Shown here one piece after another: positions 1,656-59,397 of a DNA stretch of 64,000 nt; positions within the stretch are counted from its first letter, which is position 1; each line of letters starts with the position of its first letter. Under the pieces are notes generated by a model. That model saw only the letters and a program-made list of their open reading frames with translations. It did no database searches and was not told where the DNA came from. Location of the stretch: NCBI RefSeq assembly GCF_026015965.1, contig NZ_CP110383.1, positions 901,808-965,807 of the forward strand. The letters are read 5' to 3'. The position numbers were made by a program, and so were the translations under genes. Source of the stretch: Selenomonas sputigena. GTDB taxonomy: Bacteria; Bacillota; Negativicutes; Selenomonadales; Selenomonadaceae.

Positions 1656-1702
1656 GAAGGCAAAGCACCTCGAATTCTTTTTCATCGTTGAGAAGAATTG
1701 TA

Positions 1703-1810
1703 AATTACACACACAAAGATCCACTTCGTGGACATTGTGCGCTACCTTTAATGAAAGTTATCCAATCGGTCTGCGTCGTCGGCTTGACTTCTTGGACTTT
1801 CATAGTAAAA
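1703..1810 (-). repeat. Intergenic hairpin repeat family 1, copy A
   Basis: About 105 bp, similar to copies at 19692-19799 and 25870-25980. Read on the minus strand it begins TTTTACTATGAAAGTCCAAG and ends in an imperfect hairpin, GCACAATGTCCAC-GAA-GTGGATCTTTGTG. It lies between murQ and copA, with the hairpin end nearest murQ, and contains an open 32-codon ATG frame that is not conserved in copy C. I do not recognise it as a named element. Confidence 0.8.
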
Positions 1811-7930: not shown

Positions 7931-10089
<2,159 letters not shown>

Positions 10090-10196
10090 GGAAATTTCCT
10101 TTGCAATAAAGGGAAAAGGCGAGAAGTGTCGAAAGAAATGAATGGTATACGGTTAGACGTATGCGCGATTTTTGTTCTATCTTCGGGAGGAATATC

Positions 10197-10493
10197 ATGG
10201 ATGCAAATATGATGAATGCCCTTTATACATACGGCCCTTTGATCTTCATGGTGCTCGTCATCTACTTTTTGATCATCCGGCCGCAGCGCAAGGAGCAGAA
10301 GCGCCGCAAGGAGATGCTCGATGGACTCAGGCGCGGCAATCGCGTCGTGACGATCGGCGGCATTTACGGCACGCTGACCGAGGTGCACGATACGATGGTC
10401 AAGATGAAGATCGCCGAGCATGTGGAGATCGAGGTGTCGCGTGCGTCCATCCATGCGAATGTCACGGATGGCGGGGCGCAGGAGAAATCTTGA
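10197..10493 (+). CDS. yajC: Sec translocon accessory subunit YajC
   Basis: Small inner-membrane partner of SecDF. The 98-residue protein has one N-terminal membrane helix (LIFMVLVIYFLII), then the family motif RPQRKEQKRRKEML and a cytoplasmic beta domain beginning GNRVVTIGGIYGTL. The ATG at 10197 is preceded by GGGAGGAATATC; a possible upstream ATG at 10161 lacks a ribosome-binding site. secD and secF lie 1.7 kb downstream with three genes in between, so the usual yajC-secDF unit is interrupted. Confidence 0.93.
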   Translation: MDANMMNALYTYGPLIFMVLVIYFLIIRPQRKEQKRRKEMLDGLRRGNRVVTIGGIYGTLTEVHDTMVKMKIAEHVEIEVSRASIHANVTDGGAQEKS

Positions 10494-10496
10494 CGC

Positions 10497-11084
10497 ATGA
10501 CATCCGAGGAGATTTTGCAGGCGAAGAAACGCCTGCGGCAAGAGGCCTTGAAGCGGCGCGGCAGCTTTTCAGAGCAGACGAACCGGGTGTTCAGCGAGGC
10601 CATAGAAGCGAGACTGATGTCGCTCGACGTCTGCCGCGAGGCTGGGACAGTCTTCGCCTTCGCCGCGATGTCGGACGAGGTGCAGCTCTACAGCTTCATG
10701 GAAAAGGCGCTGGCCGAGGGAAAGCGCGTTGCCGTGCCGCTTATCGTCGGCAAGGGCGTCATGGAGGCGGTGCGCGTGCGTGCGCTTTCCGACCTCGTGC
10801 CGGGAGCGTTTGACATCCCGACCGTGCGCGAAGAGCGGCGCGAGATCGTCGATCCAAAGAGCCTTGACTGCGTGCTCGTGCCGGGCGCGGCATTTTCGCG
10901 CGACGGTGCGCGGCTCGGTCTTGGTGCGGGCTTCTATGATCGCTTCTTGGGCGAGAAGGCGCCGCAGGCGCAGCGAATCGCCGTGGCATTTTCTTGTCAG
11001 ATCATGGACGAGGTTCCCCGAGAGGCGCATGACGTCATGATGCACGCGATTGTTACGGAGAACGAAACTATACTTTGCAGGTGA
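10497..11084 (+). CDS. 5-formyltetrahydrofolate cyclo-ligase
   Basis: Converts 5-formyl-THF to 5,10-methenyl-THF using ATP, recycling a folate storage form. The 195-residue product is the normal size. It has the N-terminal basic AKKRLRQEALKRR and the signature VPGAAFSRDGARLGLGAGFYDRFL, which carries the ATP and folate loops. Only three bases separate it from yajC and six from the next gene, so it is part of the same operon. Confidence 0.9.
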   Translation: MTSEEILQAKKRLRQEALKRRGSFSEQTNRVFSEAIEARLMSLDVCREAGTVFAFAAMSDEVQLYSFMEKALAEGKRVAVPLIVGKGVMEAVRVRALSDLVPGAFDIPTVREERREIVDPKSLDCVLVPGAAFSRDGARLGLGAGFYDRFLGEKAPQAQRIAVAFSCQIMDEVPREAHDVMMHAIVTENETILCR

Positions 11085-11093
11085 GAAGCATTG

Positions 11094-11804
11094 ATGAAGA
11101 TAAAAGTGGGCATGGCGAAGATCAACAAGTATGCGATGCAGCATTGCGGTGATAGCTTCGACATCATTGAGCGGCCTTACGGCGGACTTTCCGCCGTCAT
11201 CGCCGACGGGCAGGGGAACGGGCTGGCGGCGCATCATACGAGCAGCTGGGTCGTGAACAAGGCGGCTTCACTCATCGCTGACGGCGCCCGCGACGGCGCT
11301 GTCGCACGCGCCGTGCACGACTACCTCTACGCGATGAAGGACAAGAAGGTGTCGTGCACGCTGACGCTCCTGAGCGCCGATTTGGAATCGGAAACGGTCG
11401 TCATCAGCCGCAATTCCAACTGTCCGACGATTGTCAAGACGGACGAGTACCTGACGATCTACGACGACGAGGTCTCGCCGATCGGCGTCAACCGCCACAT
11501 GAAGCCACTTGTTTATGAACTGCCGTTCGCCCCGGGCATGATCGTCGTCTCTTTCACGGACGGCATCGCGCACGCAGGAAAGAAGTACGACGGCGCGTCG
11601 ATGGATATGAAGAAGATCCTCGCCATCATCGAGGACAATGCGCCCGAGGACTGCGACTTCATCGCCAAGAGCATCCTGGAATACGCGCTCTCCTTGGACA
11701 AGGACAAGGCGGGAGACGATATGACGGTCGTCGTCATGGGCATAGCGGAAGCCGCAGCCGATGCGCCGAAGATCGAGCAGCTTTCCGCTTCGTATCCGTT
11801 CTAG
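11094..11804 (+). CDS. SpoIIE-type PP2C serine phosphatase domain protein
   Basis: A 236-residue stand-alone PPM/SpoIIE-like phosphatase domain. Metal-binding motifs are IADGQGNGLAA (N-terminal Asp), SFTDGIAHAG and AGDDMTVVVM. There is no sensory or membrane domain, so it probably acts on a soluble partner such as an anti-sigma antagonist or a phospho-regulator. None is encoded next to it. I preferred ATG 11094 over TTG 11091 because of the spacing from AGGTGAG. Its position in the yajC-secDF cluster gives no direct clue to the substrate. Confidence 0.8.
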   Translation: MKIKVGMAKINKYAMQHCGDSFDIIERPYGGLSAVIADGQGNGLAAHHTSSWVVNKAASLIADGARDGAVARAVHDYLYAMKDKKVSCTLTLLSADLESETVVISRNSNCPTIVKTDEYLTIYDDEVSPIGVNRHMKPLVYELPFAPGMIVVSFTDGIAHAGKKYDGASMDMKKILAIIEDNAPEDCDFIAKSILEYALSLDKDKAGDDMTVVVMGIAEAAADAPKIEQLSASYPF

Positions 11805-11855
11805 TAGCAGCCGGTTCAGTCGAATGAAGCCATTGCGCTTCCAAAGGAGAAAGCT

Positions 11856-12197
11856 ATGCGAATTGCTGTTGTCGGCGTCTGTGCGTCGGGCAAGACGACG
11901 CTCGTGCAGGGCCTGAAGGATGCGGGCTTTGACGCATACAACGTGGCGCAGGAGCATTCGTGCATCCGCGCTTTTTGGAACAAGCACCGCCCCGACATCC
12001 TCGTGATGATCGATGCGACGCTTCCTGCAATCAAGAAGCGCCGCCGCGTCTCGTGGACGGAGGAGCGTCTTGCCGTGCAGCACGAGCGATTGCGCGACGC
12101 GCGGGAACATGCTGACCTCTATCTGCAGACGGACGATCTTTCGGCGGCGGAGGTCTTGGAGACGGTCGTCGCATTCCTGCGTGAAAAAGGGGCTTGA
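11856..12197 (+). CDS. Small P-loop NTPase of unknown function
   Basis: A 113-residue protein with a Walker A loop at the N terminus (VVGVCASGKTTL, residues 5-16). A DxT-like segment, LVMIDATLP, follows. The C terminus is helical, with Arg-rich KKRRRVSWTEERL and HERLRDAREHADL. It resembles a minimal nucleotide or shikimate-type kinase without a recognisable substrate domain. It starts behind GGAGAAAGCT. I do not recognise a specific family. Confidence 0.7.
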   Translation: MRIAVVGVCASGKTTLVQGLKDAGFDAYNVAQEHSCIRAFWNKHRPDILVMIDATLPAIKKRRRVSWTEERLAVQHERLRDAREHADLYLQTDDLSAAEVLETVVAFLREKGA

Positions 12198-12239
12198 ACC
12201 GTGTCTTTTGCGCCTTGCGCTTGAGTGCGGAAGAATAAT

Positions 12240-13508
12240 ATGTATCAGAGGAGATGGGAAGATTTGAGACAGGACGCTTTACTGAAGCTCATCGCGGTCA
12301 TCGCGGTGATCGTCGGCGTTTTTTTCGCCTTCGTCTCGCCGTTGGCAAATTCCATACGCCAAGGCCTTGACCTGCAGGGCGGCACGCATGTCGTGCTCGA
12401 AGCGGTCGATACGCCGGAAGCGCAGGTCAACGACGATGCGATGCAGCGCGTCGTCAAAATCATGGAGAAGCGCGTCAACGAGCTTGGCCTGACCGAGCCG
12501 CTGATTCAGCGCCAAGGCGAGCGCCGCATCATCATTGAATTGCCGGGCATCAAGGATCCCGATTCTGCCATTAAGACGATCGGCAAGACGGCGATGCTCG
12601 AATTCAAGGACGAGGATGGAAATACCGTCATGACGGGCACGGACCTGAAGAACGCGCAGGACGCCCGCAACCAGCAGAATCAATATGTGGTCAACTTGGA
12701 GTTCTCCGACGAGGGCGCGAAGAAGTTCGCCGATCTGACAACGAAGAACGTCGGCCGCCGCATCGCCATCCTGCTCGACGGAGAAGTCTTGACGAACCCG
12801 AATGTGCGCGAGCCGATCACGGGCGGCAGGGCTGAGATCACGGGACAGGAGAGTCAGGAAGAGGCGCATCGCATCGCGATGCTTCTGAGAAGCGGCGCAC
12901 TTCCTGTCAAGGTCAATATCATTGAGACGCGCACGGTCGGGCCGACGCTCGGACAGGACTCGAAGGACAAGAGCGAGTTCGCCTTTGTCATCGGCATTTC
13001 CGCCGTCCTCGTGTTCATGATCCTCTTCTATCGCCTTTCTGGTCTCATCGCCGATCTCAGCCTCATGGCCTACGTCATCCTGCTGCTCTTCCTTTTGAAG
13101 ATGCTCGATGCGACCTTGACGCTGCCAGGCGTCGCGGGCATCATTCTGTCCATCGGCATGGCGGTCGATGCGAACGTGCTGATCTTCGAGCACTTCAAGG
13201 AAGAATTCCGCTTGGGCAAGACGCTGCGCCTTTCGATGGAAGCGGGCTTCAAGCGCGCTTTCACGACGATCTTCGATTCAAACATCACGACGATCATCGC
13301 GGCGCTCGTGCTGTTCTTCTTCGGCACGGGAACGATCAAGGGCTTTGCCATCACGCTCGGACTCGGCGTCGTGCTCAGCATGCTGACGGCGATCACGCTC
13401 ACGCAGTACATGCTGAAGCTCCTCATCGCCTCGAATATTTGCAAGAATCCTGCCGTCTACGGTGCGACGGGATTGACTGGCGGAAGCGGGGTGAAGAAAG
13501 ATGCATAA
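12240..13508 (+). CDS. secD: Protein translocase subunit SecD
   Basis: Proton-motive-force-driven partner of SecYEG, in the inner membrane. The 422-residue form is the short Firmicute type. It has a first helix (LIAVIAVIVGVFFAFV), the signature QGLDLQGGTHVVLEA, a reduced extracytoplasmic domain with IELPGIKDPD, then five helices in the C-terminal RND fold (GMAVDANVLIFEHFKEE). The start is uncertain: ATG 12240 has GGAAG nearby, while an in-frame TTG 24 nt later is also possible. It overlaps secF by 8 nt. Confidence 0.95.
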   Translation: MYQRRWEDLRQDALLKLIAVIAVIVGVFFAFVSPLANSIRQGLDLQGGTHVVLEAVDTPEAQVNDDAMQRVVKIMEKRVNELGLTEPLIQRQGERRIIIELPGIKDPDSAIKTIGKTAMLEFKDEDGNTVMTGTDLKNAQDARNQQNQYVVNLEFSDEGAKKFADLTTKNVGRRIAILLDGEVLTNPNVREPITGGRAEITGQESQEEAHRIAMLLRSGALPVKVNIIETRTVGPTLGQDSKDKSEFAFVIGISAVLVFMILFYRLSGLIADLSLMAYVILLLFLLKMLDATLTLPGVAGIILSIGMAVDANVLIFEHFKEEFRLGKTLRLSMEAGFKRAFTTIFDSNITTIIAALVLFFFGTGTIKGFAITLGLGVVLSMLTAITLTQYMLKLLIASNICKNPAVYGATGLTGGSGVKKDA

Positions 13509-14418
13509 GTTCGACATTGTAAAGCGCACGAAGATCTGGTTCATCCTCTCCCTGTGCGTCATTCTGCCTGGCATTTTCAGCATGTGCACGCAGGGCTTCA
13601 ACCTCGGCATCGACTTCACGGGCGGCACGATCATCGAGCTGCGCTTCCAGAAGGAAGTGACCTTGGCGGATGTGCGCGGCGTCCTGCGCGAATACGGGCT
13701 CGACAACAGCACGATCCAGTTCTCGGGCGATACGGCGAATGCCGAAGCTGCGCCCACGGTCATGGTGCGAAGCGTTGACCTTGAGGAAGAGGAGCGCAAG
13801 GCCGTGATGGCGTCGCTCAAGCAGCAGCTCGGTGACTACGACGTGCTGCGCGAGGAGAAGGTCGGCGCGACGATGGGATCAGAGCTTATCATGAATGCCC
13901 TTTGGGCGCTCGCTCTCTCGTGGGTCATGATCGTGCTCTACGTCTCGTACCGCTTCGAGTTCAAGTTTGGCATTTCCTCCATCTTGGCCTTGGTTCACGA
14001 TATCCTCATCGTCCTGAGCGTATTCTCCTTGACGCAGCGGCCGATTGATTCTTCGTTCGTCGCGGCGCTCCTGACGATTGTCGGCTACTCGATCAACGAT
14101 ACCATCGTCATCTTCGACCGCATCCGCGAGAATCTGAAGCTGCACTTTAGGCGCGGCGGCGACATCAACGAGCTTGTCAATACGAGCATTTATCAGACGC
14201 TGACGCGCTCGATTTACACGGTATGCACCGTGCTCTTCACGACGTTCGCGCTCTACTGGTTCGGCGGCGATACGACGAAGGACTTCTCGTTCGCCCTTCT
14301 CGTCGGTTTCTTTGCCGGATGCTATTCGTCCATCTTCATTGCAAGCCCCATCTGGGTCGTCCTGCGCAATTTCTCGGAGAAGCGCCGCAGGGCGGGCAGT
14401 GCGGCTGCAGCGAAGTGA
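13501..14418 (+). CDS. secF: Protein translocase subunit SecF
   Basis: Second half of the SecDF pump. The 305-residue product has six predicted helices. It carries the signature GFNLGIDFTGGTIIEL and the RND motif TIVGYSINDTIVIFDRIREN. Its ATG lies inside the end of secD, so the two are translated together. A terminator follows the gene. Confidence 0.95.
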   Translation: MHKFDIVKRTKIWFILSLCVILPGIFSMCTQGFNLGIDFTGGTIIELRFQKEVTLADVRGVLREYGLDNSTIQFSGDTANAEAAPTVMVRSVDLEEEERKAVMASLKQQLGDYDVLREEKVGATMGSELIMNALWALALSWVMIVLYVSYRFEFKFGISSILALVHDILIVLSVFSLTQRPIDSSFVAALLTIVGYSINDTIVIFDRIRENLKLHFRRGGDINELVNTSIYQTLTRSIYTVCTVLFTTFALYWFGGDTTKDFSFALLVGFFAGCYSSIFIASPIWVVLRNFSEKRRRAGSAAAAK

Positions 14419-14460
14419 CCGTTGTTCATAATTTGCGCGCGGAACGCCAAGCTGATGAAA

Positions 14461-14502
14461 GGGCTGTGCACAGGTCGAAGGGTCTGTGCAGCAGCCCCTT
14501 TT
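14461..14502 (+). terminator. Rho-independent terminator after secF
   Basis: GGGCTG/TGCACAG (14461-14473) pairs with CTGTGCA/CAGCCC (14484-14497), with one bulged G. A short TTTT tail follows, 42 nt after the secF stop. Confidence 0.75.
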
Positions 14503-14541
14503 ATGTAGGTTGCTCCATCAGCGACAGATGGGAGGAGAACA

Positions 14542-16512
14542 ATGGAGAAAGAATGGTCGCTCTTGCCTGATACATCGGCGAGAGCTGTGGAATTTTCCCA
14601 GCGCATCGGCACGACGCCCTTCACGGCGGCGCTTCTTCTGCATCGCGGCATCACATCGGACGAAGAGGCGCGGGCGTTCCTTCATCCGGAAAAGCAGCCG
14701 TTTCACGATCCGTTCTTGATGAGGGATATGGAAAAGGCTGTCTCGCGCATCGAGCAGGCGATCCAAGCGCAGGAGCGCATCGTCGTCTATGGCGATTACG
14801 ACGTCGACGGCATCACGGCGACCTCGCTTCTCTGCCGCAATCTGCGTCAGCTCGGCGCGAATGCAGGCTACTTCATTCCGCATCGTCAAAAGGACGGCTA
14901 CGGGCTGCACAAGGAAACGCTTGATGAGATCATCGCTGGGGGCGCCGGGCTCATCGTCACGGTGGACTGCGGCATCTCCGCCGTCGAGGAGGCGGCAGCG
15001 GCAAAAGACAAGGTCGATCTCATCATCACCGATCACCATCTGCCGGGCCAGGAATTACCCAAAGCCCTCGCCGTCATCGATCCGCATCGTGCAGACTGCG
15101 CATATCCCGACAAGAACATCGCGGGCGTGGGCGTGGCGTTCAAGCTCTGCCAGGCGCTTTGGCAGAAAATGCGCGGCAAATCCTTCACGGGCGATCTTGA
15201 CATCGTCGCCCTGGGCACGGTCGCCGACGTTGTGCCGCTCCTCGGGGAGAATCGGAAGATCGTGCAGCAAGGTCTGCGCGTCTTGAAGAAATCGAAGCGT
15301 CCGGGTATTCAGGCGCTTCTCGCTGTGACGGAACTCCAAGAGAAGGAGATCACGGCAGGACATATCGGCTTCGTGCTCGCGCCGCGGCTCAATGCGGCGG
15401 GACGCCTGGCGTCCGCGCTGCGCGGCGTCGAATTGCTCCTGACGGAGGACGGGGAGGAAGCGCAGGCGATTGCGGAGGAGCTTGACGCGGCGAATCGCGA
15501 GCGTCAGGCCGTGGAGCAGGAGATCTTGCAGGCGGCAGAAAAACAGATCGAGGAGATTGACGTCAAGCGAGCGCATGTGCTCGTGCTTCATGGAGAAGGC
15601 TGGCATCCCGGCGTCATCGGCATCGTGGCCTCGCGCATCGTCGAGCGCTATTACCGTCCGACGGTCATCATCGCGGAAGAAGACGGCATCGGCAAGGGAT
15701 CGTGCCGCAGCATACGCGGCTTCCACATGTTTGAAGCTCTTTCTGCCTGCGGGGAGCATCTTCTGGGCTTTGGCGGCCACGCGCAGGCGGCGGGGCTTTC
15801 GCTTCGCTCGGCGGACGTCGCTTCCTTCCGTGAGGCTATGGAGGCTTATGCGGCAAAGGTGCTGACGGAAGGGGATTTCGTGCCGATTCTCGACATCGAG
15901 CTGGAGCTTGCACCCGAGAAGATTACGGAGCAGCTGATGACGGAGATCAAGCTTTTGGAGCCGTACGGCATGGGAAATCCCAAGCCGCTCTTTTCGACGC
16001 ACGGCGTTCGCGGCAGTTATGCGCGGCAGATCGGCAAGGAGGGGCAGCACCTGAAGTTTGAGCTTGACGGCTTGGACGCGAGCATTGACGTTCTGGCTTG
16101 GGGCAAGGGAGAGGAGGCGCCGCTCGTCAATCGCGAGCGCATCGACATTGCGTATTTTCCCGAATACCATGTGTGGCGCGAGAAGCGCTCTCTGCAGCTC
16201 ATGCTTGAAGATTTTCGTCCGGCACGCGCCGAGGCGAAGCATCCCGACCGTGACGCGCTGGCCTCGGTCTATCGCTTCCTGCTCGTACGTCAAAGAGCGG
16301 GCGAAGGTCTGCCGGCAGATGCGGAAAAGCTTCTGGCAGAGTATCTGCTTCATTTCCCTGCCATGGGAATCTTCACGTTTCAAAAGGCGCTGCAGATTTT
16401 CGAAGAACTCAGCGTCCTGCTGCCTGACGACGGACGATATGCGTTCTGCCCGCCGCAAGAGAAGCTCGACTTGCAGAAGTCGCGCATCTTCCGTGAAGGG
16501 AATCCGCTGTAA
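14542..16512 (+). CDS. recJ: Single-stranded-DNA-specific exonuclease RecJ
   Basis: 5'-3' single-strand exonuclease used in recombination and mismatch or base-excision repair. The 656 residues are longer than the E. coli enzyme, with an added C-terminal region of the kind common in Firmicutes. DHH-family motifs are seen: YGDYDVDGITAT, VDCGISAVEE, ITDHHLPG, LGTVADVVPL and, in the DHHA1 part, GWHPGVIGIVASRI and GFGGHAQAAGLSL. An OB-like region follows, around YARQIGKEGQHLKFEL. ATG 14542 follows GGGAGGAGAACA. relA lies downstream with its own likely promoter. Confidence 0.95.
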   Translation: MEKEWSLLPDTSARAVEFSQRIGTTPFTAALLLHRGITSDEEARAFLHPEKQPFHDPFLMRDMEKAVSRIEQAIQAQERIVVYGDYDVDGITATSLLCRNLRQLGANAGYFIPHRQKDGYGLHKETLDEIIAGGAGLIVTVDCGISAVEEAAAAKDKVDLIITDHHLPGQELPKALAVIDPHRADCAYPDKNIAGVGVAFKLCQALWQKMRGKSFTGDLDIVALGTVADVVPLLGENRKIVQQGLRVLKKSKRPGIQALLAVTELQEKEITAGHIGFVLAPRLNAAGRLASALRGVELLLTEDGEEAQAIAEELDAANRERQAVEQEILQAAEKQIEEIDVKRAHVLVLHGEGWHPGVIGIVASRIVERYYRPTVIIAEEDGIGKGSCRSIRGFHMFEALSACGEHLLGFGGHAQAAGLSLRSADVASFREAMEAYAAKVLTEGDFVPILDIELELAPEKITEQLMTEIKLLEPYGMGNPKPLFSTHGVRGSYARQIGKEGQHLKFELDGLDASIDVLAWGKGEEAPLVNRERIDIAYFPEYHVWREKRSLQLMLEDFRPARAEAKHPDRDALASVYRFLLVRQRAGEGLPADAEKLLAEYLLHFPAMGIFTFQKALQIFEELSVLLPDDGRYAFCPPQEKLDLQKSRIFREGNPL

Positions 16513-16523
16513 GATATCGCTCT

Positions 16524-16553
16524 TTGTTCAAGCCTTGCGCGATGGTGTATAAT
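16524..16553 (+). promoter_or_regulatory. Candidate promoter of relA
   Basis: TTGTTC (16524-16529) and a perfect TATAAT (16548-16553) are 18 bp apart. A second TATAAT overlaps just downstream (16555-16560). The -35 is poor, so the tandem -10 boxes are the main support. Confidence 0.45.
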
Positions 16554-16627
16554 GTATAATATGAGATTAGAATGGGCGAGCATGGATCGCTGCCCGTAGA
16601 ATGCCGAGGAAAGCCGGGTGGAGTGCA

Positions 16628-18850
16628 ATGAGTGAAATGAATCCCGTGACGATCGATGCGATCTTGGAAGCGGTCAAGCGCTATCAGCCAAATGCGGACA
16701 CCGACCTCATCCGAAGGGCGTACGAACTTGCGGACGCCGCACACAAGGGACAGAAGCGCGTTTCGGGTGAAGACTACATCATCCATCCGCTGGCCGTCGC
16801 GAAGATTTTGACGGATCTGCAGATCGACGACATCACGATCAGTGCGGCCATCCTGCATGATGTCGTGGAAGATACGACGCATACGCTCGATGAAATGCGC
16901 GAGCTCTTCGGCGATGAGGTCGCAATGCTCATCGACGGCGTGACGAAGCTCGGCAGGATCCAATATAAGTCGAAGGAAGAGCAGCAGCTTGAAAGCTATC
17001 GCAAGATGTTTCTCGCGATGGCGAAGGACATCCGCGTCATCATGATCAAGCTCGCCGACCGTCTGCACAACATGCGCACGCTCAAGTACATGCGCGAGGA
17101 CAAGCAGAAGCGCATCGCGCGGGAGACCATCGAGATCTACGCGCCGCTCGCGAACCGCCTCGGCATATCGAATGTCAAGTGGGAGCTTGAGGATCTGTGC
17201 CTGCGCTATCTCGATCCCAAGGCGTACTACGATCTCGTCGAGAGCGTCAAGCAGAAGCGGCAGGAGAGGCAGGCGTTCATCGACGAGGCGCACGAGCAAA
17301 TCGTGGAAAAGCTTGAAGAGGCGCATATAACGGCAGAAATCCGGGGTCGTGCCAAGCATTTCTACAGCATCTACAAGAAGATGAAGCGCGATCAGAAGGA
17401 CATCAGCGAGATCTACGACCTTTCCGCTCTGCGCGTGCTCGTCGACTCCGTCAAGGACTGCTACGGCGTGCTCGGCATCATTCATGCGATGTGGAAGCCG
17501 CTGCCCGGCCGCTTCAAGGACTACATTGCCATGCCGAAGTCGAACGGCTACCAGTCCCTGCACACGACCGTGATCTGCCGCGGCTATCCGCTTGAGATTC
17601 AGATCCGCACGTTTGCCATGCACAAGGTTTCGGAGTACGGTGTTGCCGCGCATTGGAAGTACAAGGAAGCGGGAAAGAGCGTCGGCGCGACGTGCGAGTA
17701 CGATCAGAAAATGTCGTGGCTGCGTCAGATGGTCAGCCTGCAGCATGAACTGGACGATCCGCGCGAATACTTCGAGGCTCTGAAGGTCGACGTTTTTTCC
17801 GACGAGGTCTTCGTCTTCACTCCTAAGGGCGATGTCGTCGATCTGCCCAAAGGATCGATTCCCATAGATTTCGCCTACCGCATCCATACGGAAGTCGGGC
17901 ATCACTGCGTGGGCGCTAAGGTCAACGGCAAGATTGTGCCGTTGGAGTACAAGCTAAAGAACGGCGACATCGTTTCCATCATCACGAACAAGTCGAACAG
18001 TGGGCCGAGCCGTGACTGGCTCAACATCGTCGCGTCCTCGGAGACGCGCACGAAGATACGCTCGTGGTTCAAGAAGCAGCGTAAGGAAGAAAATATCGCG
18101 CGCGGCATGGACTTGATGGAGAAGGAGGCCAAGCATCTTGGCTATGCGCCGAAAGAGGTGCTGAAGCCCAAGCGCCTAGAACTTTTGGCGAAGAAGCTCA
18201 ACATTCCGCAGGTGAACGACCTTCTCGCCGCCATCGGTTACGGCGGCATAACGGTCAACAGCATCCTCTCGAAGCTCATTGAGATGCACAAAAAGGATCT
18301 GCAGAAGGCGACGACGCCCGATATTTCCCAAATGCTCAGCGAACTAAAGCAGCCGCTGAAGAACCGCAAGAAGAAGGCGAGCCACGGCATTCTCGTGGAA
18401 GGGGAGGGCGGATTCCTCGTGCGTCTGGCACGCTGCTGCAATCCGATTCCGGGCGATCCAATCACGGGCTACATCACGCGAGGGCGCGGCGTTTCCGTGC
18501 ATCGTTCGGATTGCCCAAATCTCTTGAACGATATGGATTTCTCGCGCGTCATCGAGGTCAACTGGGATGTCGGTCTTGACAAGGTGTATACGGTGCAGAT
18601 CGAGATCGTCTGCAACGATAAGACAGGAATGCTCGCAGAACTTTTCGCCCTGCCAGCTGAGATGAAGGTCAACATCACTTCGCTCACGGCGAAGGCGAAT
18701 AAGTCGAACAAGACATCGCTCGTCACGATGGGGCTTGATGTGCGAAACTCGCAGCAGGTGGCGCAGATCATGACGAAGATTCGCCGCATGAAGGATGTCT
18801 ATAGCGTATCGCGCTCTCTGGGCACGTCAGCAAGGGATGATGAATTATGA
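16628..18850 (+). CDS. rel: Bifunctional (p)ppGpp synthetase/hydrolase RelA/SpoT (Rel)
   Basis: Makes and degrades the stringent-response alarmone. The 740-residue protein has an N-terminal HD hydrolase domain with ILHDVVEDT (intact HDxxED, about residue 76) and IKLADRLHNMRTL. A synthetase domain follows with RFKDYIAMPKSNGYQSLHT, then a TGS domain (VFVFTPKGDVVDLP), a zinc-finger region (ARCCNPIPGDPITGYITRGRG) and a C-terminal ACT domain. Both catalytic centres look intact. The chosen ATG (16628) has GGTGGAG upstream; an earlier ATG at 16601 does not. It overlaps the next gene by ATGA. Confidence 0.96.
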   Translation: MSEMNPVTIDAILEAVKRYQPNADTDLIRRAYELADAAHKGQKRVSGEDYIIHPLAVAKILTDLQIDDITISAAILHDVVEDTTHTLDEMRELFGDEVAMLIDGVTKLGRIQYKSKEEQQLESYRKMFLAMAKDIRVIMIKLADRLHNMRTLKYMREDKQKRIARETIEIYAPLANRLGISNVKWELEDLCLRYLDPKAYYDLVESVKQKRQERQAFIDEAHEQIVEKLEEAHITAEIRGRAKHFYSIYKKMKRDQKDISEIYDLSALRVLVDSVKDCYGVLGIIHAMWKPLPGRFKDYIAMPKSNGYQSLHTTVICRGYPLEIQIRTFAMHKVSEYGVAAHWKYKEAGKSVGATCEYDQKMSWLRQMVSLQHELDDPREYFEALKVDVFSDEVFVFTPKGDVVDLPKGSIPIDFAYRIHTEVGHHCVGAKVNGKIVPLEYKLKNGDIVSIITNKSNSGPSRDWLNIVASSETRTKIRSWFKKQRKEENIARGMDLMEKEAKHLGYAPKEVLKPKRLELLAKKLNIPQVNDLLAAIGYGGITVNSILSKLIEMHKKDLQKATTPDISQMLSELKQPLKNRKKKASHGILVEGEGGFLVRLARCCNPIPGDPITGYITRGRGVSVHRSDCPNLLNDMDFSRVIEVNWDVGLDKVYTVQIEIVCNDKTGMLAELFALPAEMKVNITSLTAKANKSNKTSLVTMGLDVRNSQQVAQIMTKIRRMKDVYSVSRSLGTSARDDEL

Positions 18851-19488
18851 GTTTGAACATGAAGGCGCTCGTGGTAGGGGCGCTCGGCGTCAACTGCTAT
18901 ATTTTGCATGAAGAAGGAAGTAAAGAGGCGATAGCGATCGACCCGGGTGGCAGCAAAGAAACTATATGGCAGTATATCCAAGAAGATGGGCTGAACCTCA
19001 AGGCGATTCTCAACACGCATGCTCATGCCGACCATATTGGCGCCATCGACTTTCTGCGCGAGAAAACGGGCGCTAAGCTTTATATCCATGAAGCTGATGC
19101 GCCGATGCTCCTCGATGCGCGGAAGAACTTGTCCGCCTTTATGGGCGTGCCGATCATGACGCGCCCCGCCGATACTCTTTTGAAAGGCGGCGAGGTCTTG
19201 GAGATCGGCGGCATGAAGTTCACCGTGCTTCATACGCCCGGACATTCCCCGGGCGGCGTCTGCTACCTCATGGAGGATCGCGTTTTCAGCGGCGACACGT
19301 TGTTTGCTGAATCCGTCGGCAGGACGGATTTTCCCGGTGCTTCCTCCCAAGATCTCCTAACTTCCATTAAAGAAAAGCTCATGACTCTGCCCGACGAGCT
19401 TGTTGTATACTGTGGGCACGGTCCTGCGACGACGATCGGGCATGAGAGAAAGTGCAATCCCTATATCAATGGCTTTGGTTTCATGTAG
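18847..19488 (+). CDS. Metallo-beta-lactamase-fold hydrolase (glyoxalase II-like)
   Basis: A 213-residue cytoplasmic zinc hydrolase of the YcbL/GloB-like group. The metal motif THAHADHIGA, then HTPGHSPGGVCY, FSGDTLF and YCGHGPATTIGHE give the full set of ligands. It lacks the C-terminal glutathione-binding domain of true glyoxalase II, so the substrate is unknown. Coupling to relA by an ATGA overlap is the usual Firmicute order. The D-aminoacyl-tRNA deacylase gene that often lies between them is absent. Confidence 0.88.
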   Translation: MSLNMKALVVGALGVNCYILHEEGSKEAIAIDPGGSKETIWQYIQEDGLNLKAILNTHAHADHIGAIDFLREKTGAKLYIHEADAPMLLDARKNLSAFMGVPIMTRPADTLLKGGEVLEIGGMKFTVLHTPGHSPGGVCYLMEDRVFSGDTLFAESVGRTDFPGASSQDLLTSIKEKLMTLPDELVVYCGHGPATTIGHERKCNPYINGFGFM

Positions 19489-19631
19489 AATCAAGGGGCG
19501 TGAGGCGTCTTGCTGCCGAATTTTGCTTCTCATTAATTCCTGTTCTTTTAGGGTCTGATTTTATTTTACAACGAATCTTTCCTGCGAAGTTTGAACTGCT
19601 TGAATAAATGTTTGTATTCTTTGATACTTTT

Positions 19632-19640
19632 TGCTACAAT
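19632..19640 (+). promoter_or_regulatory. Candidate extended -10 promoter upstream of fur
   Basis: TGCTACAAT (TG, one base, then TACAAT) lies in the AT-rich gap of 336 bp between the hydrolase and fur. There is only a weak -35, TTTGTA, 18 bp before. A transcript from here would contain the repeat at 19692-19799 in its leader. Apart from this and the repeat I see nothing else in the gap. Confidence 0.4.
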
Positions 19641-19691
19641 AGCTTATAAAGACTTTGAATTGACAGATACTTTCAATGTCTGCTCATTTTG

Positions 19692-19799
19692 TTTACTATG
19701 AAAATCCAAGAGGTCAAGCCCAAAGGGCGCAGAGCAATTGGATTTTTCATTAAGGACGACGCACAATGTCCACTTTGTGGACATTGTGCGTGTAGTTTG
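19692..19799 (+). repeat. Intergenic hairpin repeat family 1, copy B
   Basis: About 105 bp, starting TTTACTATGAAAATCCAAG. It includes a perfect 14-bp stem with a 3-base loop (CGCACAATGTCCAC-TTT-GTGGACATTGTGCG, 19760-19790), only 35 nt before the fur start. It is in the same orientation as fur. An ATG at 19698 opens a 44-codon frame through the hairpin that ends at 19832, just inside fur; it has no ribosome-binding site. Confidence 0.85.
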
Positions 19800-19824
19800 C
19801 AACAAATCGTAAAGGAGTATGGTC

Positions 19825-20271
19825 ATGGCTAAAATAACAATGGAGGATCTGAGGAAGAGGCTGCAGGAACGTCAGCATAAAATGACGCCGCAGCGGCAGA
19901 TTGTTCTGCAGGTTTTCATGGATCGTCCTGGTCAGCATATCAGCGCGGAGGACGTACACATGATCTTGCGCGCCAATCATTCGGAAATTGGCTTGGCTAC
20001 TGTCTATCGTAGTTTGGAGCTTCTCGTCGAGCTGGGGCTTCTGCAGAAGATGGAATTCGGCGACGGCTGCAGCCGCTACGAGATCTCGGATCTCAATCCC
20101 GGCGAGCATCAGCATCATCACTTGATTTGCCTGAGCTGCGGTAAGGTCACGGAGTTTTCTGAGGATCTTCTGGAGAATCTTGAGAAGAAGGTTGCCGATG
20201 AATGCGACTTCCAGATCGAGGATCATCAAGTCAAGCTGTTCGGTTACTGCAAGGAGTGCCGCAAGCATTGA
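19825..20271 (+). CDS. fur: Fur-family metalloregulator
   Basis: Metal-responsive repressor of about normal length (148 residues). The N-terminal winged-helix domain is KMTPQRQIVLQVF with recognition region IGLATVYRSLELL. The dimer and metal part has GEHQHHHLICLSCGKVTEF and a second CxxC at YCKEC, the structural zinc site. The residue after SRY is Glu, as in Fur, not the Asp that PerR uses for peroxide sensing. I therefore prefer Fur (Zur is possible) over PerR. AAAGGAG at 19811-19817 fits the second ATG at 19825. Its stop overlaps the hemZ TTG start (TTGA), which links metal regulation to a heme-pathway gene. Confidence 0.88.
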   Translation: MAKITMEDLRKRLQERQHKMTPQRQIVLQVFMDRPGQHISAEDVHMILRANHSEIGLATVYRSLELLVELGLLQKMEFGDGCSRYEISDLNPGEHQHHHLICLSCGKVTEFSEDLLENLEKKVADECDFQIEDHQVKLFGYCKECRKH

Positions 20272-21794
20272 TTGTTCGACGTTTCTTGCTCGACCGAAAA
20301 GAGGAGGTCATCGTCAAGCTCGTGCGCGAGCTTTTGGAACTCTTCAAGATCCGAGTGTTGGAGCTTGAAGAGGAGTGCGGCGAGGAACAGGCGGATTTTG
20401 CCGTATTGTCCGTGCGGCATGAAATTGCCATGGATCCTGTGCCTGCAGTTCATACAGAACTTCTTGCTGTAGAGGAGACGGGGGAGGAACGGCGCTTTTC
20501 TATAGAGGGCGCCGCAAGGCAGGGCGAAAAGGCGATGGCGGCTGTCCATCGCCTCGTCAAGCTCAACCTCTACCGTCTCTTTCGTACGCATTTCGATATG
20601 CCTGCGGCGGCATGGGGTATTCTGCACGGCGTCCGCCCGACGAAGATCGTGCATCGCTTCATCGAAGCGGGACTTTCGCGCGAGGAGATCGTCGCGCGCC
20701 TTTTGGAGGACTACGAGGTTTCTTTGGAGAAGGCTTCGTACATGACGGCGATGGCGTTTCGCCAGAAACCGTTCCTGCAGACGTCGGACGAGCGGACGAT
20801 CAGCGTCTACGTCGGCATACCGTTCTGTCGCTCGCGCTGCCTTTACTGCTCGTTTCCCGCCTACATCCTGCCCAAAGAAGAGCAGCTCAGCACTTTTTTT
20901 ACCGCATGGGACAAGGATCTCGCAGCGGCAAAGTGTGAGATCGAGCGTCATCGCCTGAAGGTGCAGAGTATCTATATCGGCGGCGGTACGCCGACGAGTC
21001 TCAGCAATGCCGATTTCGAACGTATGCTTTCCCTCGTCGAGGGAGCTTTCTATGGCGAGCATACGGGCGAATTTACGGTGGAGGCGGGGCGTCCCGATAC
21101 GATGACGCCAGAAAAGGCGCTCTCAATGAAGAAGCATCGCGTGAGCCGCGTCAGCGTGAATCCGCAGACGATGCAGCAGCGCACATTGGAGCGCATCGGC
21201 AGGGCGCATACGCCCGAAGACATCGTCCGCATGTTCCGCCTGCTGCGCGAGACGGGCGATTTTTCCATCAACATGGACGTCATCCTCGGCTTGCCGGGGG
21301 AGACGTGCTCGGACGTTGCCGATACGATGGCGAAGGTTCTCGCGCTCGCTCCCGACGACGTGACACTTCACTCGCTCGCCTTGAAGCGCGGCTCGAAGCT
21401 CAAGATGCACTTGGAAGAATATGAGCTTCCAAATGATGCCGAGGTGCAGGCGATGTTTCGGACGGCGATGGATCAGGTGCAGGACGAGGGCTTTTTGCCG
21501 TACTATCTCTATCGGCAGGGCTATATGAGCGGGCAGATGGAAAATGTCGGCTGTGCGCGTCCGGGCGCTGAGAGCATGTACAATATGCAGATCATGGACG
21601 AGCATCAGACGATCCTAGGCATCGGCTGCGCCGCGACGAGCAAGATTATGAATTTCCGCACGAAGAGGCTCAAGGCGTCGTTCAACGCCAAGGATTTTCA
21701 TACTTATGTGCGCGATATCGACGATTATATCGCGAAGCGAGCCGCTCTTTTAGCGGAGGCTTACGGAGACGAGGGGGAGGAAGAAACGTGTTGA
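20268..21794 (+). CDS. hemZ: HemZ-type coproporphyrinogen dehydrogenase-like radical SAM protein
   Basis: Radical-SAM enzyme related to HemN and annotated in Bacillus as oxygen-independent coproporphyrinogen oxidase; the exact activity of HemZ proteins is not settled. The 508-residue protein has an N-terminal extension of about 160 residues, then the cluster motif FCRSRCLYCSF (CxxxCxxC), the GGGTPT glycine loop and the EAGRPDTM, VNPQTM and VILGLPGET segments. I chose the TTG at 20268, which overlaps the fur stop. An upstream frame extension to 20202 would run inside fur. Its position before hisS-aspS is conserved in Firmicutes. Confidence 0.87.
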   Translation: MIVRRFLLDRKEEVIVKLVRELLELFKIRVLELEEECGEEQADFAVLSVRHEIAMDPVPAVHTELLAVEETGEERRFSIEGAARQGEKAMAAVHRLVKLNLYRLFRTHFDMPAAAWGILHGVRPTKIVHRFIEAGLSREEIVARLLEDYEVSLEKASYMTAMAFRQKPFLQTSDERTISVYVGIPFCRSRCLYCSFPAYILPKEEQLSTFFTAWDKDLAAAKCEIERHRLKVQSIYIGGGTPTSLSNADFERMLSLVEGAFYGEHTGEFTVEAGRPDTMTPEKALSMKKHRVSRVSVNPQTMQQRTLERIGRAHTPEDIVRMFRLLRETGDFSINMDVILGLPGETCSDVADTMAKVLALAPDDVTLHSLALKRGSKLKMHLEEYELPNDAEVQAMFRTAMDQVQDEGFLPYYLYRQGYMSGQMENVGCARPGAESMYNMQIMDEHQTILGIGCAATSKIMNFRTKRLKASFNAKDFHTYVRDIDDYIAKRAALLAEAYGDEGEEETC

Positions 21795-23053
21795 TCAACG
21801 GACCGCGCGGCACGAAGGATATTTTGCCTGATACGGTCGCACAATGGACGCATGTCGAGAAGGTGATCCGCGAGCTATGTGCGCGATACGGTTACCATGA
21901 AATCCGCACGCCGATTTTCGAGCATACGGAGCTTTTCCTGCGCGGCATCGGCGAGACGACCGACGTCGTGGAAAAGGAGATGTACACGTTCACCGATCGA
22001 GGCGAGCGCAGCCTTACGTTGCGGCCCGAAAATACGGCTTCTGTCGTGCGCTCGTACCTGCAGAACAAGCTCTATGCGGCGGACGCTCTCGTGAAGCTCT
22101 TCTACATCGGCTCGATGTTCCGCTATGACCGTCCGCAGGCGGGACGCTACCGCGAGTTCCACCAGTTCGGCGTGGAGGCTTTGGGCGAGGCAAGTCCTGC
22201 AGTCGATGCGGAAATCATCGTGCTTGCCGTCGAGTTCCTGCGCGCTCTCGGCTTGCAGGAGCTAAAACTGCATCTTAATTCCGTCGGCTGTCCCAAGTGT
22301 CGTCCCGTCTATCGCGAGAAACTGCAGGAGTTCTTCCGCCCGCATCTCGAAGAGCTTTGCACGGACTGCCGCTCGCGTTTCGAGCGCAATCCGCTGCGCC
22401 TCCTCGACTGCAAGAACGAGCATTGCCATGCACTCGCTGAGGATGCGCCGCGCATCACGGACTGCCTTTGTGACGAGTGCCGCACACATTTCGCTGAGGT
22501 GCAGTCGTATCTTACGGCGGCGGATGTTCCCTTCGAGCTTGATGCGAATCTTGTGCGTGGCCTCGACTACTATACGAAGACGGCTTTCGAGGTCAAGTAC
22601 ACGCCGCTCGGTGCGCAGAGCGCCGTGGCGGGCGGCGGGCGCTACGACGGACTCGTCGAGGAGGTCGGCGGTCCGCCGACGCCTGGGATCGGCTTTGCCG
22701 TGGGGCTTGAGCGCGTGCTGCTCGCGCTCGAAAAACAGGGGCTTTTGCCTGAGGAGCGAGAAGCGGTCGATGTCTTCGTCGTCGCCTTGGGCGAGGAGGC
22801 GAGAATTCCTGCCTTCAGGCTCTTGCACGAGCTTCGCGCGGCTAAATTCTCCGCTGCCATGGACTTCGCAGGGCGCAGCATGAAGGCACAGATGAAGCAG
22901 GCTAACAAGAAGAATGCCCGCTTTGTGGCGATCTTGGGTGAAGATGAGGTCAAGGAGGCTTCTGCCCTCTTGAAGGATATGAAGACGAGCGAGCAGAAGA
23001 AGCTCGCTTTGAAGGATTTTGTTCCTGCATTATGTGTTGAGGTGAAGAATTGA
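21788..23053 (+). CDS. hisS: Histidyl-tRNA synthetase
   Basis: Class II synthetase of 421 residues, typical length. Motif 1 lies around HEIRTPIFEHTELF, motif 2 is MFRYDRPQAGRYREFHQFG, and the histidine-specific blocks are LVRGLDYYTKTAFE and GGGRYDGLVEEVGG. Motif 3 is GIGFAVGLERVLL. The anticodon-binding domain follows. It starts with GTG at 21788 and overlaps the end of hemZ by seven bases; GAGGGGGAGGAAG precedes it. Confidence 0.97.
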   Translation: MLINGPRGTKDILPDTVAQWTHVEKVIRELCARYGYHEIRTPIFEHTELFLRGIGETTDVVEKEMYTFTDRGERSLTLRPENTASVVRSYLQNKLYAADALVKLFYIGSMFRYDRPQAGRYREFHQFGVEALGEASPAVDAEIIVLAVEFLRALGLQELKLHLNSVGCPKCRPVYREKLQEFFRPHLEELCTDCRSRFERNPLRLLDCKNEHCHALAEDAPRITDCLCDECRTHFAEVQSYLTAADVPFELDANLVRGLDYYTKTAFEVKYTPLGAQSAVAGGGRYDGLVEEVGGPPTPGIGFAVGLERVLLALEKQGLLPEEREAVDVFVVALGEEARIPAFRLLHELRAAKFSAAMDFAGRSMKAQMKQANKKNARFVAILGEDEVKEASALLKDMKTSEQKKLALKDFVPALCVEVKN

Positions 23054-24852
23054 TGGAAACATTGGAAGGCATGAAGAGGACGCGCCATTGCGGCGAGCTG
23101 CGTGAGGGTGATGTTGGCGCCGAGGTCGTGCTCTCGGGCTGGGTATCGAGGAGAAGGGATCACGGCGGTCTGATCTTCGTCGATATGCGCGACCGCTCGG
23201 GGTTTGTGCAGGTCGTCTACGATGAGGCGGCGATGGGCAAGGACGCGTTCCACAAGGCGGAAACCCTGCGCAACGAGTTCGTCATCGGCGTGCGCGGCAA
23301 GGTGCGCGCGCGCTCGGAGGATACGGTCAATCCGCATATCGAGACGGGCAAGATCGAGGTCGTCTGTGAGGAGCTGCGCATCCTGAATACGGCGAAGACG
23401 CCGCCCTTCTACATCCAGGACAACATCGACGTCGACGAGACGCTGCGCCTCAAGTATCGCTATCTTGACCTGCGCCGCCCCGAGATGCAGGCGAATCTCA
23501 TGCTGCGTCACCGCGTGACGAAGATCATGCGCGATTTCCTCGACCGTCATGAATTCATCGAGATTGAGACGCCGATGCTCTGCAAGAGCACGCCCGAGGG
23601 CGCACGCGACTTCCTTGTGCCGAGCCGACTGAATCCCGGCAAGTTCTACGCACTGCCGCAGTCGCCGCAGATCTTCAAGCAGATTCTCATGGTCGCAGGC
23701 TTCGAGAAGTATTTCCAGATCGTGCGCTGTTTCCGCGATGAGGATCTGCGTGCTGACCGTCAGCCCGAGTTCACGCAGCTCGATATCGAGACGTCCTTCC
23801 TTGACGAGAACGACATCTTGGAGCTGATGGAAGGCCTTGTCGCGGAGCTTTTCGACAAGACGCTCGGCATCAAGCTCGAAACCCCGTTTTTGCGCATGAA
23901 GTGGGATGAGGCGATGGAGCGATTCGGCTCGGACAAGCCCGATCTTCGCTTTGGCATGGAGCTCATGGACATCTCGGAGTACGTCAAGGGTTCGGACTTC
24001 AAAGTCTTCTCCTCTGTCCTCGAAAACGGCGGACAGGTCAAGGTCATCAATGTCGAGGACTATGCGAATATCCCGCGCCGCGAGCTGGACGGTCTCGTGC
24101 AGTATGTGCAGGGCTACGGCGCGAAGGGTCTCGCGTGGATTCAGTACACGGAAGAGGGCGTGAAGTCGCCGTTCAAGAAGTTCTACGCCGATGAAGTCTT
24201 CGAGAAGATCAAGGAGGCCTGCCATGCTAAGACGGGCGATCTCCTGCTCGTCATCGCGGACAAGCCGCTCGTCGTCGCACAGGCGCTCGGCGAACTGCGC
24301 CTTGAGATGGCGCGCCGTCGCGGCCTCATCGATGCCGATGCGCTGAAATTCCTCTGGGTCACGGACTTCCCGATGTTTGAATACAACGAGGAAGAGAAGC
24401 GCTGGAAGGCCATGCACCATCCGTTCACAGCACCGCGCCGCGAGGATGTCGAGTACTTGATGTCCGATCCTGGAAGGGTCAAGGCGAACGCTTACGACAT
24501 GGTTCTGAACGGCGTCGAAATCGGCGGCGGTAGCCTGCGTATCTATCAGGGCGATTTGCAGGAGAAGGTCTTCGAGGCCATCGGACTCACGCAGGAAGAG
24601 GCGCGTCAAAAGTTCGGCTTCATGATGGACGCCTTCGAGTACGGCACGCCGCCGCACGGCGGCATCGCTTTCGGTCTCGACCGCCTCGTCATGCTCATGG
24701 CGAAGCGTCGCTCGATCCGCGACGTCATCGCGTTCCCCAAGACGCAGAGCGCTTCGGACGTGATGTCGCACGCGCCGTCCGAGGTCGACGCCAAGCAGCT
24801 GCGCGAGCTTTATGTGCGCTCTACGGCGGTCAAGAAGGAAGAGAAGAAGTAG
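23053..24852 (+). CDS. aspS: Aspartyl-tRNA synthetase
   Basis: Class II synthetase of the long bacterial type (599 residues). An N-terminal OB anticodon domain (LSGWVSRRRDHGGLIFVDMRDRSG) is followed by motif 1/2 (ETPMLCKSTPEGARDFLVPSR; FRDEDLRADRQPEFTQLDIE). The inserted GAD domain comes next, and motif 3 is GIAFGLDRLVMLM. The ATG overlaps the hisS stop (TGATG); a TTG one codon earlier is also possible. Whether it is discriminating or also charges tRNA-Asn cannot be read from the sequence. A strong terminator follows. Confidence 0.97.
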   Translation: METLEGMKRTRHCGELREGDVGAEVVLSGWVSRRRDHGGLIFVDMRDRSGFVQVVYDEAAMGKDAFHKAETLRNEFVIGVRGKVRARSEDTVNPHIETGKIEVVCEELRILNTAKTPPFYIQDNIDVDETLRLKYRYLDLRRPEMQANLMLRHRVTKIMRDFLDRHEFIEIETPMLCKSTPEGARDFLVPSRLNPGKFYALPQSPQIFKQILMVAGFEKYFQIVRCFRDEDLRADRQPEFTQLDIETSFLDENDILELMEGLVAELFDKTLGIKLETPFLRMKWDEAMERFGSDKPDLRFGMELMDISEYVKGSDFKVFSSVLENGGQVKVINVEDYANIPRRELDGLVQYVQGYGAKGLAWIQYTEEGVKSPFKKFYADEVFEKIKEACHAKTGDLLLVIADKPLVVAQALGELRLEMARRRGLIDADALKFLWVTDFPMFEYNEEEKRWKAMHHPFTAPRREDVEYLMSDPGRVKANAYDMVLNGVEIGGGSLRIYQGDLQEKVFEAIGLTQEEARQKFGFMMDAFEYGTPPHGGIAFGLDRLVMLMAKRRSIRDVIAFPKTQSASDVMSHAPSEVDAKQLRELYVRSTAVKKEEKK

Positions 24853-24871
24853 GCAGTCAGCCGCAAGATAT

Positions 24872-24905
24872 AAAAAATCCCCATGCAGGAGCATGGGGAT
24901 TTTTT
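24872..24905. terminator. Bidirectional rho-independent terminator
   Basis: Perfect 15-bp inverted repeat, AAAAAATCCCCATGC / GCATGGGGATTTTTT with an AGGA loop. It serves aspS on the plus strand and the convergent small gene on the minus strand. Confidence 0.93.
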
Positions 24906-24914
24906 ATGTTCGGC

Positions 24915-25124
24915 TTATTTTTTGAGCGCTTCCTTCAAGATCGCCGTGCAAGCCTGTTGCGCGACGCGCAACACGTCGGTGTAGACCTTGTTGTAGAGCT
25001 CGCCGCCGTCGACGACACCGCGGCCGTTCTGCGTGATGAAGAACTTCTTCGGACGATCCTCGAAGGCCTTGTCCGCTTCAGCAAATTTCGCCTCGACCAG
25101 CTTCTCCAGTTCCTGCTCTGTCAA
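24915..25124 (-). CDS. Small conserved-looking protein of unknown function
   Basis: A 69-residue soluble protein, mostly charged and helical (MTEQELEKLVEAKFAEADKAF), with a middle FFITQNGRGVVDGG and a C-terminal helix. It has no membrane segment and no metal motif. The start is TTG at 25124 behind GAGGTGAC, with its own promoter (25158-25185) and a shared terminator, which together argue that it is a real gene. I do not recognise a family. Confidence 0.7.
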   Translation of the reverse strand: MTEQELEKLVEAKFAEADKAFEDRPKKFFITQNGRGVVDGGELYNKVYTDVLRVAQQACTAILKEALKK

Positions 25125-25157
25125 AATAAGTCACCTCTTTCTATAATTATACCTTAT

Positions 25158-25185
25158 ATTATACATCATTTTGATTGATTGTAAA
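25158..25185 (-). promoter_or_regulatory. Promoter of the 69-residue protein gene
   Basis: On the minus strand: TTTACA (25185-25180), a 16-bp spacer, then TATAAT (25163-25158). GAGGTGAC and the TTG start follow within about 35 nt. Confidence 0.6.
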
Positions 25186-25191
25186 GCTGAC

Positions 25192-25788
25192 TTATTTGGC
25201 GGCGAAACGATAGTTGTGCCCGTCTTCTGTTACGATGCACTTGTCTGATTTTGAAAGGAAGCCCGCAACGACTTCATTGCGCAGTGCGAAGTAATTGGCC
25301 GGGTCGCCGCCGGCTTCCCGCCAAAAAGCGCGGTGCACGTCGAGGCGCAGTTCCCATGCGAAGCTTTCGTCGGACGAATCTGTGACCATGCAGGCGCCGT
25401 CGCACGGCATGCCGTCGAGCATGAGGCTGTCCATGGCATTGAACAAGGCGCTCGGCCGCGACTCTTCCGCAGCGGTTTCAGCCCCGAAGGCGAAGGCGGC
25501 TCGCTTCATGTCCTCCAAGCGTTCTGCATCCTGCTTCAGAAGCTTCGTCACAAGAGCGGCATAGCGGGATTCGGCATCCTCGATTTTGCCCAACAGCCAG
25601 CCATGGATGTTCGCCAGATCGATGATCGTTTCGAGCGGCCGCGACTCTTCCTTTACATAAGCGGCCGCCTCTTCTGCACTCATCCAACCTTTTTCAATGG
25701 CAAGATTGGCAATCGTCTTCGTCAGCTTTTCCTGTGACTGGATTTTCTCATACATGCGAAAATGAATCGGCCCTAAAAATGCACTCAT
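25192..25788 (-). CDS. Conserved-looking hypothetical protein
   Basis: A 198-residue soluble protein opening MSAFLGPIHFRMYEKIQSQE. The N-terminal half is helical (residues 1-115); the C-terminal half is compact, with DGMPCDGACMVTD and VHRAFWREAGGDPANYF. Two cysteines are close together (PCDGAC). No enzyme motif is recognised. The ATG has an ideal GGAGGT site 7 nt upstream, and a TATAAT lies in the AT-rich region before it. The neighbour on the same strand has its own promoter, so the two are probably separate units. Confidence 0.72.
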   Translation of the reverse strand: MSAFLGPIHFRMYEKIQSQEKLTKTIANLAIEKGWMSAEEAAAYVKEESRPLETIIDLANIHGWLLGKIEDAESRYAALVTKLLKQDAERLEDMKRAAFAFGAETAAEESRPSALFNAMDSLMLDGMPCDGACMVTDSSDESFAWELRLDVHRAFWREAGGDPANYFALRNEVVAGFLSKSDKCIVTEDGHNYRFAAK

Positions 25789-25869: not shown

Positions 25870-25980
25870 CTTACCATGAAAGTCCAAGAAGTCAAGCCCA
25901 AAGGGCGCAGACTGATTGGGTAACTTTCTGTAAGGGCGGCGCACAATGTCCACAAAGTGGACGTTTGTGCGTGTAGCTTA
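25870..25980 (+). repeat. Intergenic hairpin repeat family 1, copy C
   Basis: About 105 bp in the divergent gap (25789-26101) between the 198-residue protein and the L,D-transpeptidase. It starts TTACCATGAAAGTCCAAG and ends with an imperfect stem, GCACAATGTCCAC-AAA-GTGGACGTTTGTGC. Its ATG frame stops after 15 codons, unlike copies A and B, which argues against a coding role. The rest of the gap is AT-rich and holds the promoter at 26048-26056. Confidence 0.85.
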
Positions 25981-26047: not shown

Positions 26048-26056
26048 TGCTATAAT
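26048..26056 (+). promoter_or_regulatory. Extended -10 promoter of the L,D-transpeptidase gene
   Basis: TGCTATAAT (TG, one base, perfect TATAAT) about 45 bp before the start. No good -35 is visible, which is normal for an extended -10 promoter. Confidence 0.55.
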
Positions 26057-59088: not shown

Positions 59089-59126
59089 TACCGATAGTAA
59101 TTGTTTTCTCAAAAATTCATACAGAC

Positions 59127-59353: not shown

Positions 59354-59397
59354 AAGATTCATTGCTTGACTTACGAGAGATGAGGAGATGGATGCCA

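Follow-up and report, generated by a model that had tools for sequence, protein, structure and literature searches.

The ~105-bp repeat upstream of fur in Selenomonas sputigena is a member of a family of non-autonomous mobile repeats of distinctive structure, spread among Selenomonadaceae, for which no description was found in Rfam or in the papers searched. We consider it probable that these are DNA repeats moved in trans through folded single strands, in the manner of IS200/IS605 or REP elements. A unit of about 105 bp has entered intergenic DNA behind a T-rich triplet, always cleanly and in a defined polarity, both of its hairpins have been maintained by compensatory change between subfamilies and genera, and the family has recently been active in at least one genome, as seen from the identical copies in G041.

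The window is the whole stretch of 64,000 nucleotides that was analysed, and its own genome (G000) is a single contig of 2,613,980 bp. The sister genome (G001, 2,568,361 bp) is 95-97% identical to G000 over the 20 kb compared, and the average nucleotide identity among S. sputigena strains is reported to be about 95% (PMC13339959). Synteny with G001 breaks at window positions 25189-25203, with 10000-25189 corresponding to G001 855-871 kb and the rest to 1223-1228 kb.

Three copies of the element in the window

An unfiltered covariance-model (CM) search recovered exactly three full copies in the window, in agreement with the original prediction, whose coordinates were right to 1-2 bases. The other matches in the window were weak, lay on the minus strand and fell inside two of the three copies. 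The features are as follows.

1702..1809, minus strand: element copy upstream of a murQ-like gene; CM E 7.3e-22; diverged, common to G001 (alignment)
19692..19798, plus strand: element copy upstream of fur; CM E 3.6e-22; 19692-19694 is the YTT triplet and 19695-19798 the carried unit, with ends assigned by analogy to the empty sites
19699..19749, plus strand: hairpin 1 of the fur copy; outer helix TGAAAATCC...GGATTTTTCA, apical stem GCCC/GGGC; from sequence and family covariation
19760..19790, plus strand: hairpin 2 of the fur copy; perfect palindrome CGCACAATGTCCAC-TTT-GTGGACATTGTGCG; from sequence and covariation
25870..25979, plus strand: element copy upstream of an L,D-transpeptidase (ldt) gene; CM E 6.5e-28; target-derived CTT 25870-25872, inserted 107-bp unit 25873-25979

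The shared motifs that had been named were present in the copies, and the domains of the neighbouring genes (SIS/GKRP-like for the murQ-like gene, FUR and YkuD) were consistent with the neighbours proposed. The placement in gaps between genes with the hairpin towards the downstream gene was also borne out: all three copies are intergenic and present their hairpin-2 end to the next gene, the murQ copy doing so on the minus strand. The fur copy stops some 15 bases short of the likely ribosome-binding site, no terminator-like T-run follows its hairpin 2, and G000 and G001 carry different element sequences in this same gap. Since a TATAAT-like box (26051-26056, by reading) is located about 70 bases downstream of the ldt element, the ldt copy is probably outside the transcript.

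Elsewhere in the window, a cobalamin riboswitch (Rfam RF00174) is found at 59115-59364. A pair of 40-nt inverted repeats (4796-4835 and 36001-36040, 93% complementary) presumably corresponds to the first repeat family of the original prediction.

Unit structure and conservation of the fold

With the joint marked by ^, the unit is composed of YTT^ACTATGAAAG..., hairpin 1 (~50 nt), a TAAGG linker, hairpin 2 (GCGCACAATGTCCAC/GTGGACGTTTGTGCG) and TGTAGYTT^. Between its ends, ACTATGAAAG and GTGTAGYTT, there is no inverted-repeat relation, and the unit of about 105 bp (105-110 bp) holds no open frame of note, indicating that there is no mobility gene inside. The internal loops of hairpin 1 are kept as CCAA-GA-N4-AA-GYC...GRC-GCA-N4-GA-TTGG in most copies, and the stems vary around these fixed loops, for example from GTC/GAC to GCGC/GCGC. 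The motif at the 3' end is TGTAG in most copies and TTGAG or GAAAG in others. Type B units are longer (~170 bp), carry GGACATATGT...ACATATGTCC in the 3' part and end in TGAAAG, and in a G167 copy an unrelated hairpin precedes TGTAG. The 3' hairpin is exchangeable, and hairpin 1 is constant in its internal loops.

When one copy of the commonest form (L005) was folded, the z score was -6.3 as RNA and -6.4 as DNA. Both sides had changed at 7 of 30 pairs among 42 G000 copies. Among 87 copies from several genera the figure rose to 20 of 30, as high as in none of 500 shuffles; fitting this alignment to the model biases it towards the structure, and the counts are raised by related copies. The compensating differences, described beforehand as partial, are thus real and had been understated.

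Copy number and spread

About 54 loci were found to be occupied in G000 by BLASTN and the covariance model, and the count in G001 was similar. Some G000 loci are head-to-tail arrays with a period of 105-108, and the number of units in arrays varies between strains. Some match at E <= 0.001 was present in 61 of 189 genomes of the family, and matches at E <= 1e-9 in this set place the element in at least nine genera of Selenomonadaceae. At least 14 identical units, each at a different site, were observed in G041. No copies were found in phage and plasmid collections, nor in viral contigs by exact-pattern search, and the fur neighbourhood in other genera held no element copy. Rfam gave no match over the element copies, and the element family was not found described in searches of the open-access literature.

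At locus L046 (1607-2158; G000 ~2,057,447-2,057,998), a 550-bp composite is bounded by element ends and includes a second hairpin-1-like stem. On its minus strand there is a small hydrophobic peptide frame (MSLTAFLLSIMAGVIANCISKWLDERDD...) that is type I toxin-like by reading.

Empty sites and the position of the joint

The ldt copy (L016) is absent from G001, where the site is intact with a single CTTACC and the empty site reads CATTTCTTACCGAGG. Empty sites comparable to this one were obtained for L009, L025, L029 and L049 between G000 and G001, and polymorphism was seen as well at L033 and L051, where the joint differs slightly. The best pair came from G042, whose empty site is CTGGCTTTGTGCACG, and G041, whose occupied site is CTGGCTTT-ACTATG...GTGTAGTTT-GTGCACG. 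The clean empty sites give the insertion model YTT^ACTATG...GTGTAGYTT^R, with no repeat or duplication beyond the triplet and no terminal inverted repeats. As L025 has TCT on the left, TTT on the right and TCT at the empty site, the comparison indicates that the left triplet is derived from the target and the right one carried by the element, placing the joint after the target triplet. The targets are mostly YTT^RY, the favoured fourth base being A for G000/G001 and G for both G041 and G191. In strain pairs compared without an outgroup, the identical G041 copies and the intact sites favour gain, rather than loss, as the probable direction of change. Precise joints, polarity, a conserved fold and ends free of terminal inverted repeats together point to transfer of a single strand, as in IS200/IS605 and REP systems.

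Two further ideas on target choice found no consistent support. YTT could be read by base pairing with the AAG next to hairpin 1, and GTAAG or GCAAG at this position matched the fourth target base in G000/G001 vs G041 (48 A : 13 G vs 0 A : 15 G, p 1e-8). The association was gone in genomes outside these three (7 A : 12 G vs 6 A : 4 G, p 0.27 for the fourth position where both guides occur). A preference for sites beside terminators, which stood out by eye in G041, gave p 0.08 there, p 0.73 in G000/G001 and a weak p 0.01 in G191 and G042 combined.

Gene context and orientation

Genes were called with a codon-usage gene finder made for this analysis, according to which 94% of the window is coding. 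The original prediction had named three observations that would speak against it, of which random orientation of many copies was found; copies inside genes and a lack of stem covariation were not. Element clusters overlapped genes in 0 of 56 cases in G000 and 0 of 50 in G001. The downstream gene was co-directional with the element in 27 of 56 cases in G000 and 20 of 48 in G001, and some copies were located in convergent gaps, so the conserved orientation to the downstream gene that had been noted in the window did not hold across either genome. On these genome-wide counts, the shared orientation of the three window copies is chance. No replication-strand bias was detected (28/54), with origin and terminus inferred from the GC skew of the fetched loci. 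A bias relative to the upstream gene in G000 (39/55, p 0.003) was discarded, as it was not repeated in G001 (25/46).

Departures from pairing in hairpin 1 comprised 30 G.T and 29 A.C; because the two are equal, the copies, as far as their sequences tell, show no sign of strand-specific RNA pairing. For the 14 copies common to both strains, substitution was 5.5% vs 5.4% in the flanks, an equality that rests on the fur and murQ copies; when these two strongly diverged copies were left out, substitution was ~2.8%. Eleven shared copies were somewhat more conserved than their flanks, and some copies may be under weak selection.

Alternative explanations

The original prediction had offered a regulatory RNA or a targeted mobile repeat. 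The second of these is supported by the dispersed copies, clean empty sites, recent identical copies, tandem arrays and T-rich target, and the regulatory RNA reading is not supported genome-wide. In its specific form, a cis-regulatory leader RNA for the downstream gene, with the terminal hairpin as an attenuator or as control of the ribosome-binding site, it is very unlikely. In its favour, the window copies all point their hairpin-2 end at a gene, the fold covaries, the fur copy ends close to the likely ribosome-binding site and eleven shared copies differ less than their flanks. However, orientation is random across both genomes and convergent gaps are occupied too, G.T and A.C departures balance in hairpin 1, G001 lacks the ldt copy, the fur copies differ between strains, and hairpin 2 of the fur copy lacks a terminator-like T-run. 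Single copies may nevertheless affect neighbouring genes.

Two other routes of movement were weighed against transfer of a folded single strand. Site-specific recombination by a tyrosine or IS110-type recombinase, with a double-stranded circle as intermediate and attachment at the junction GTGTAG^TTTACTATG, seems unlikely. The head-to-tail arrays would fit, their junction being equal to the one a circle would carry, as would an intact IS110 transposase beside the G191 array with TTTACTAT motifs in the same non-coding stretch. Yet IS110 was absent from 5 of 10 hosts (G042, G192, G020, G202 and G204), only a fragment was present in G041 and a broken copy in G001; the joint falls at one position with no exchanged overlap, and such enzymes in general need no conserved hairpins. 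That a reverse transcriptase retrotransposes the element as a structured RNA, as with group IIC introns, is highly improbable. Group IIC introns land behind terminators, and the element is folded, with several insertions in G041 and G191/G042 behind terminator-like hairpins. Against this, no association with terminators was seen in G000/G001 and the one in G041 fell short of significance, Rfam recognises no intron domain V, and no reverse transcriptase domain (RVT_1) was detected in G000, G041, G042, G191 or G020, G001 being the only positive among 11 genomes.

Comparison with known mobile repeats

IS200/IS605-derived miniature elements of the PATE type have hairpins near their ends, no terminal inverted repeats and no target duplication, and enter one strand just 3' of a short motif rich in T. 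Similarly, the element has subterminal hairpins, lacks terminal inverted repeats and is inserted 3' of a fixed short motif, but neither a Y1 transposase nor TnpB was found in G000, G041, G042 or G191. IS200/IS605 elements may also show replication-strand bias, of which the element shows none. REP sequences are folded single-stranded substrates of TnpA-REP (PMC8266576). With the REP/REPIN sequences moved by TnpA-REP (RAYT), the element shares many intergenic copies, non-autonomy, imperfect hairpins with conserved irregularities and, in most copies, a GTAG motif beside the hairpin. It differs in its unit of 105-170 bp with two unlike hairpins, in having GTAG on the other (3') side of the hairpin, with TTGAG or GAAAG instead in some copies, and in that no Y1 transposase is present in G000 or several other many-copy genomes.

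The enterobacterial intergenic repeat units RU-1, RU-2 and RU-3 (PMC2759123) and prokaryotic MITEs (PMC10969869) are likewise short mobile repeats of intergenic DNA, close to the element in size and presumably mobilised in trans. Unlike them, the element lacks terminal inverted repeats, has precise polarity and duplicates no target sequence outside the triplet; a classic MITE, which requires such repeats and a target-site duplication, was rejected for this reason. Integron attC sites and cassettes resemble the element in having a folded recombination site and head-to-tail arrays, but the core boxes misfit (by reading), the copies are scattered genome-wide and there are no cassette genes.

Proposed mobilisation and the missing enzyme

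For the mobile DNA repeat that we favour, the fold would be needed for mobilisation: an HUH-like strand-transfer enzyme acting in trans would recognise the folded single strand and cut it behind the YTT of each end. A new copy inserting at the TTT^AC junction of an old copy would produce the head-to-tail arrays, and individual copies would mostly be passengers. The enzyme may be supplied intermittently or come from a family outside those searched, such as the Y2 or Rep types of HUH enzyme or the tyrosine recombinases. In profile searches, Y1 transposase (PF01797) was absent from G000, G041, G042, G191, G202 and G204, and from G018, a near relative that has no strong copies. Hence the expected HUH enzyme does not reside in these genomes, including the one whose copies are identical. 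On such profile absences Y1, TnpB and reverse transcriptase were rejected as resident mobilisers, as was IS110, which does not track the repeats. Absence of the mobiliser from the searched hosts may reflect its loss from them or gaps in draft assemblies. We suggest only tentatively that these folded mobile repeats form a class of their own, with recent activity in some Selenomonadaceae, in which a conserved hairpin serves for recognition, the 3' hairpin is exchangeable and the enzyme lies outside the Y1, TnpB, reverse transcriptase and IS110 families.

A family-wide mobile repeat with clean empty sites and a covariation-backed fold makes the substrate rules testable, and finding the enzyme would either widen the range of HUH/REP systems in Negativicutes or reveal a new mechanism by which small folded DNA is mobilised. 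The element also alters gene leaders, in that two S. sputigena-type strains differ in their copy sets before fur, and its polymorphic sites would serve as strain markers.

Insertion sequences were observed next to several copies. In G001, two element copies (L200 and L271, ~1,181,000 and 2,040,600) have an IS200-type insertion, a Y1 element, at their 3' junction GTGTAGTTAT. This IS200 inserts after TTAT, seemingly here that of the repeat's 3' junction, and was rejected as mobiliser, having its own ends, unrelated to those of the element. At L336 (G191 contig 1, ~35.7-36.5 kb), the intact IS110-type transposase gene adjoins the element array with more TTTACTAT motifs between them, and IS110 may target the junction of the repeat at this locus.
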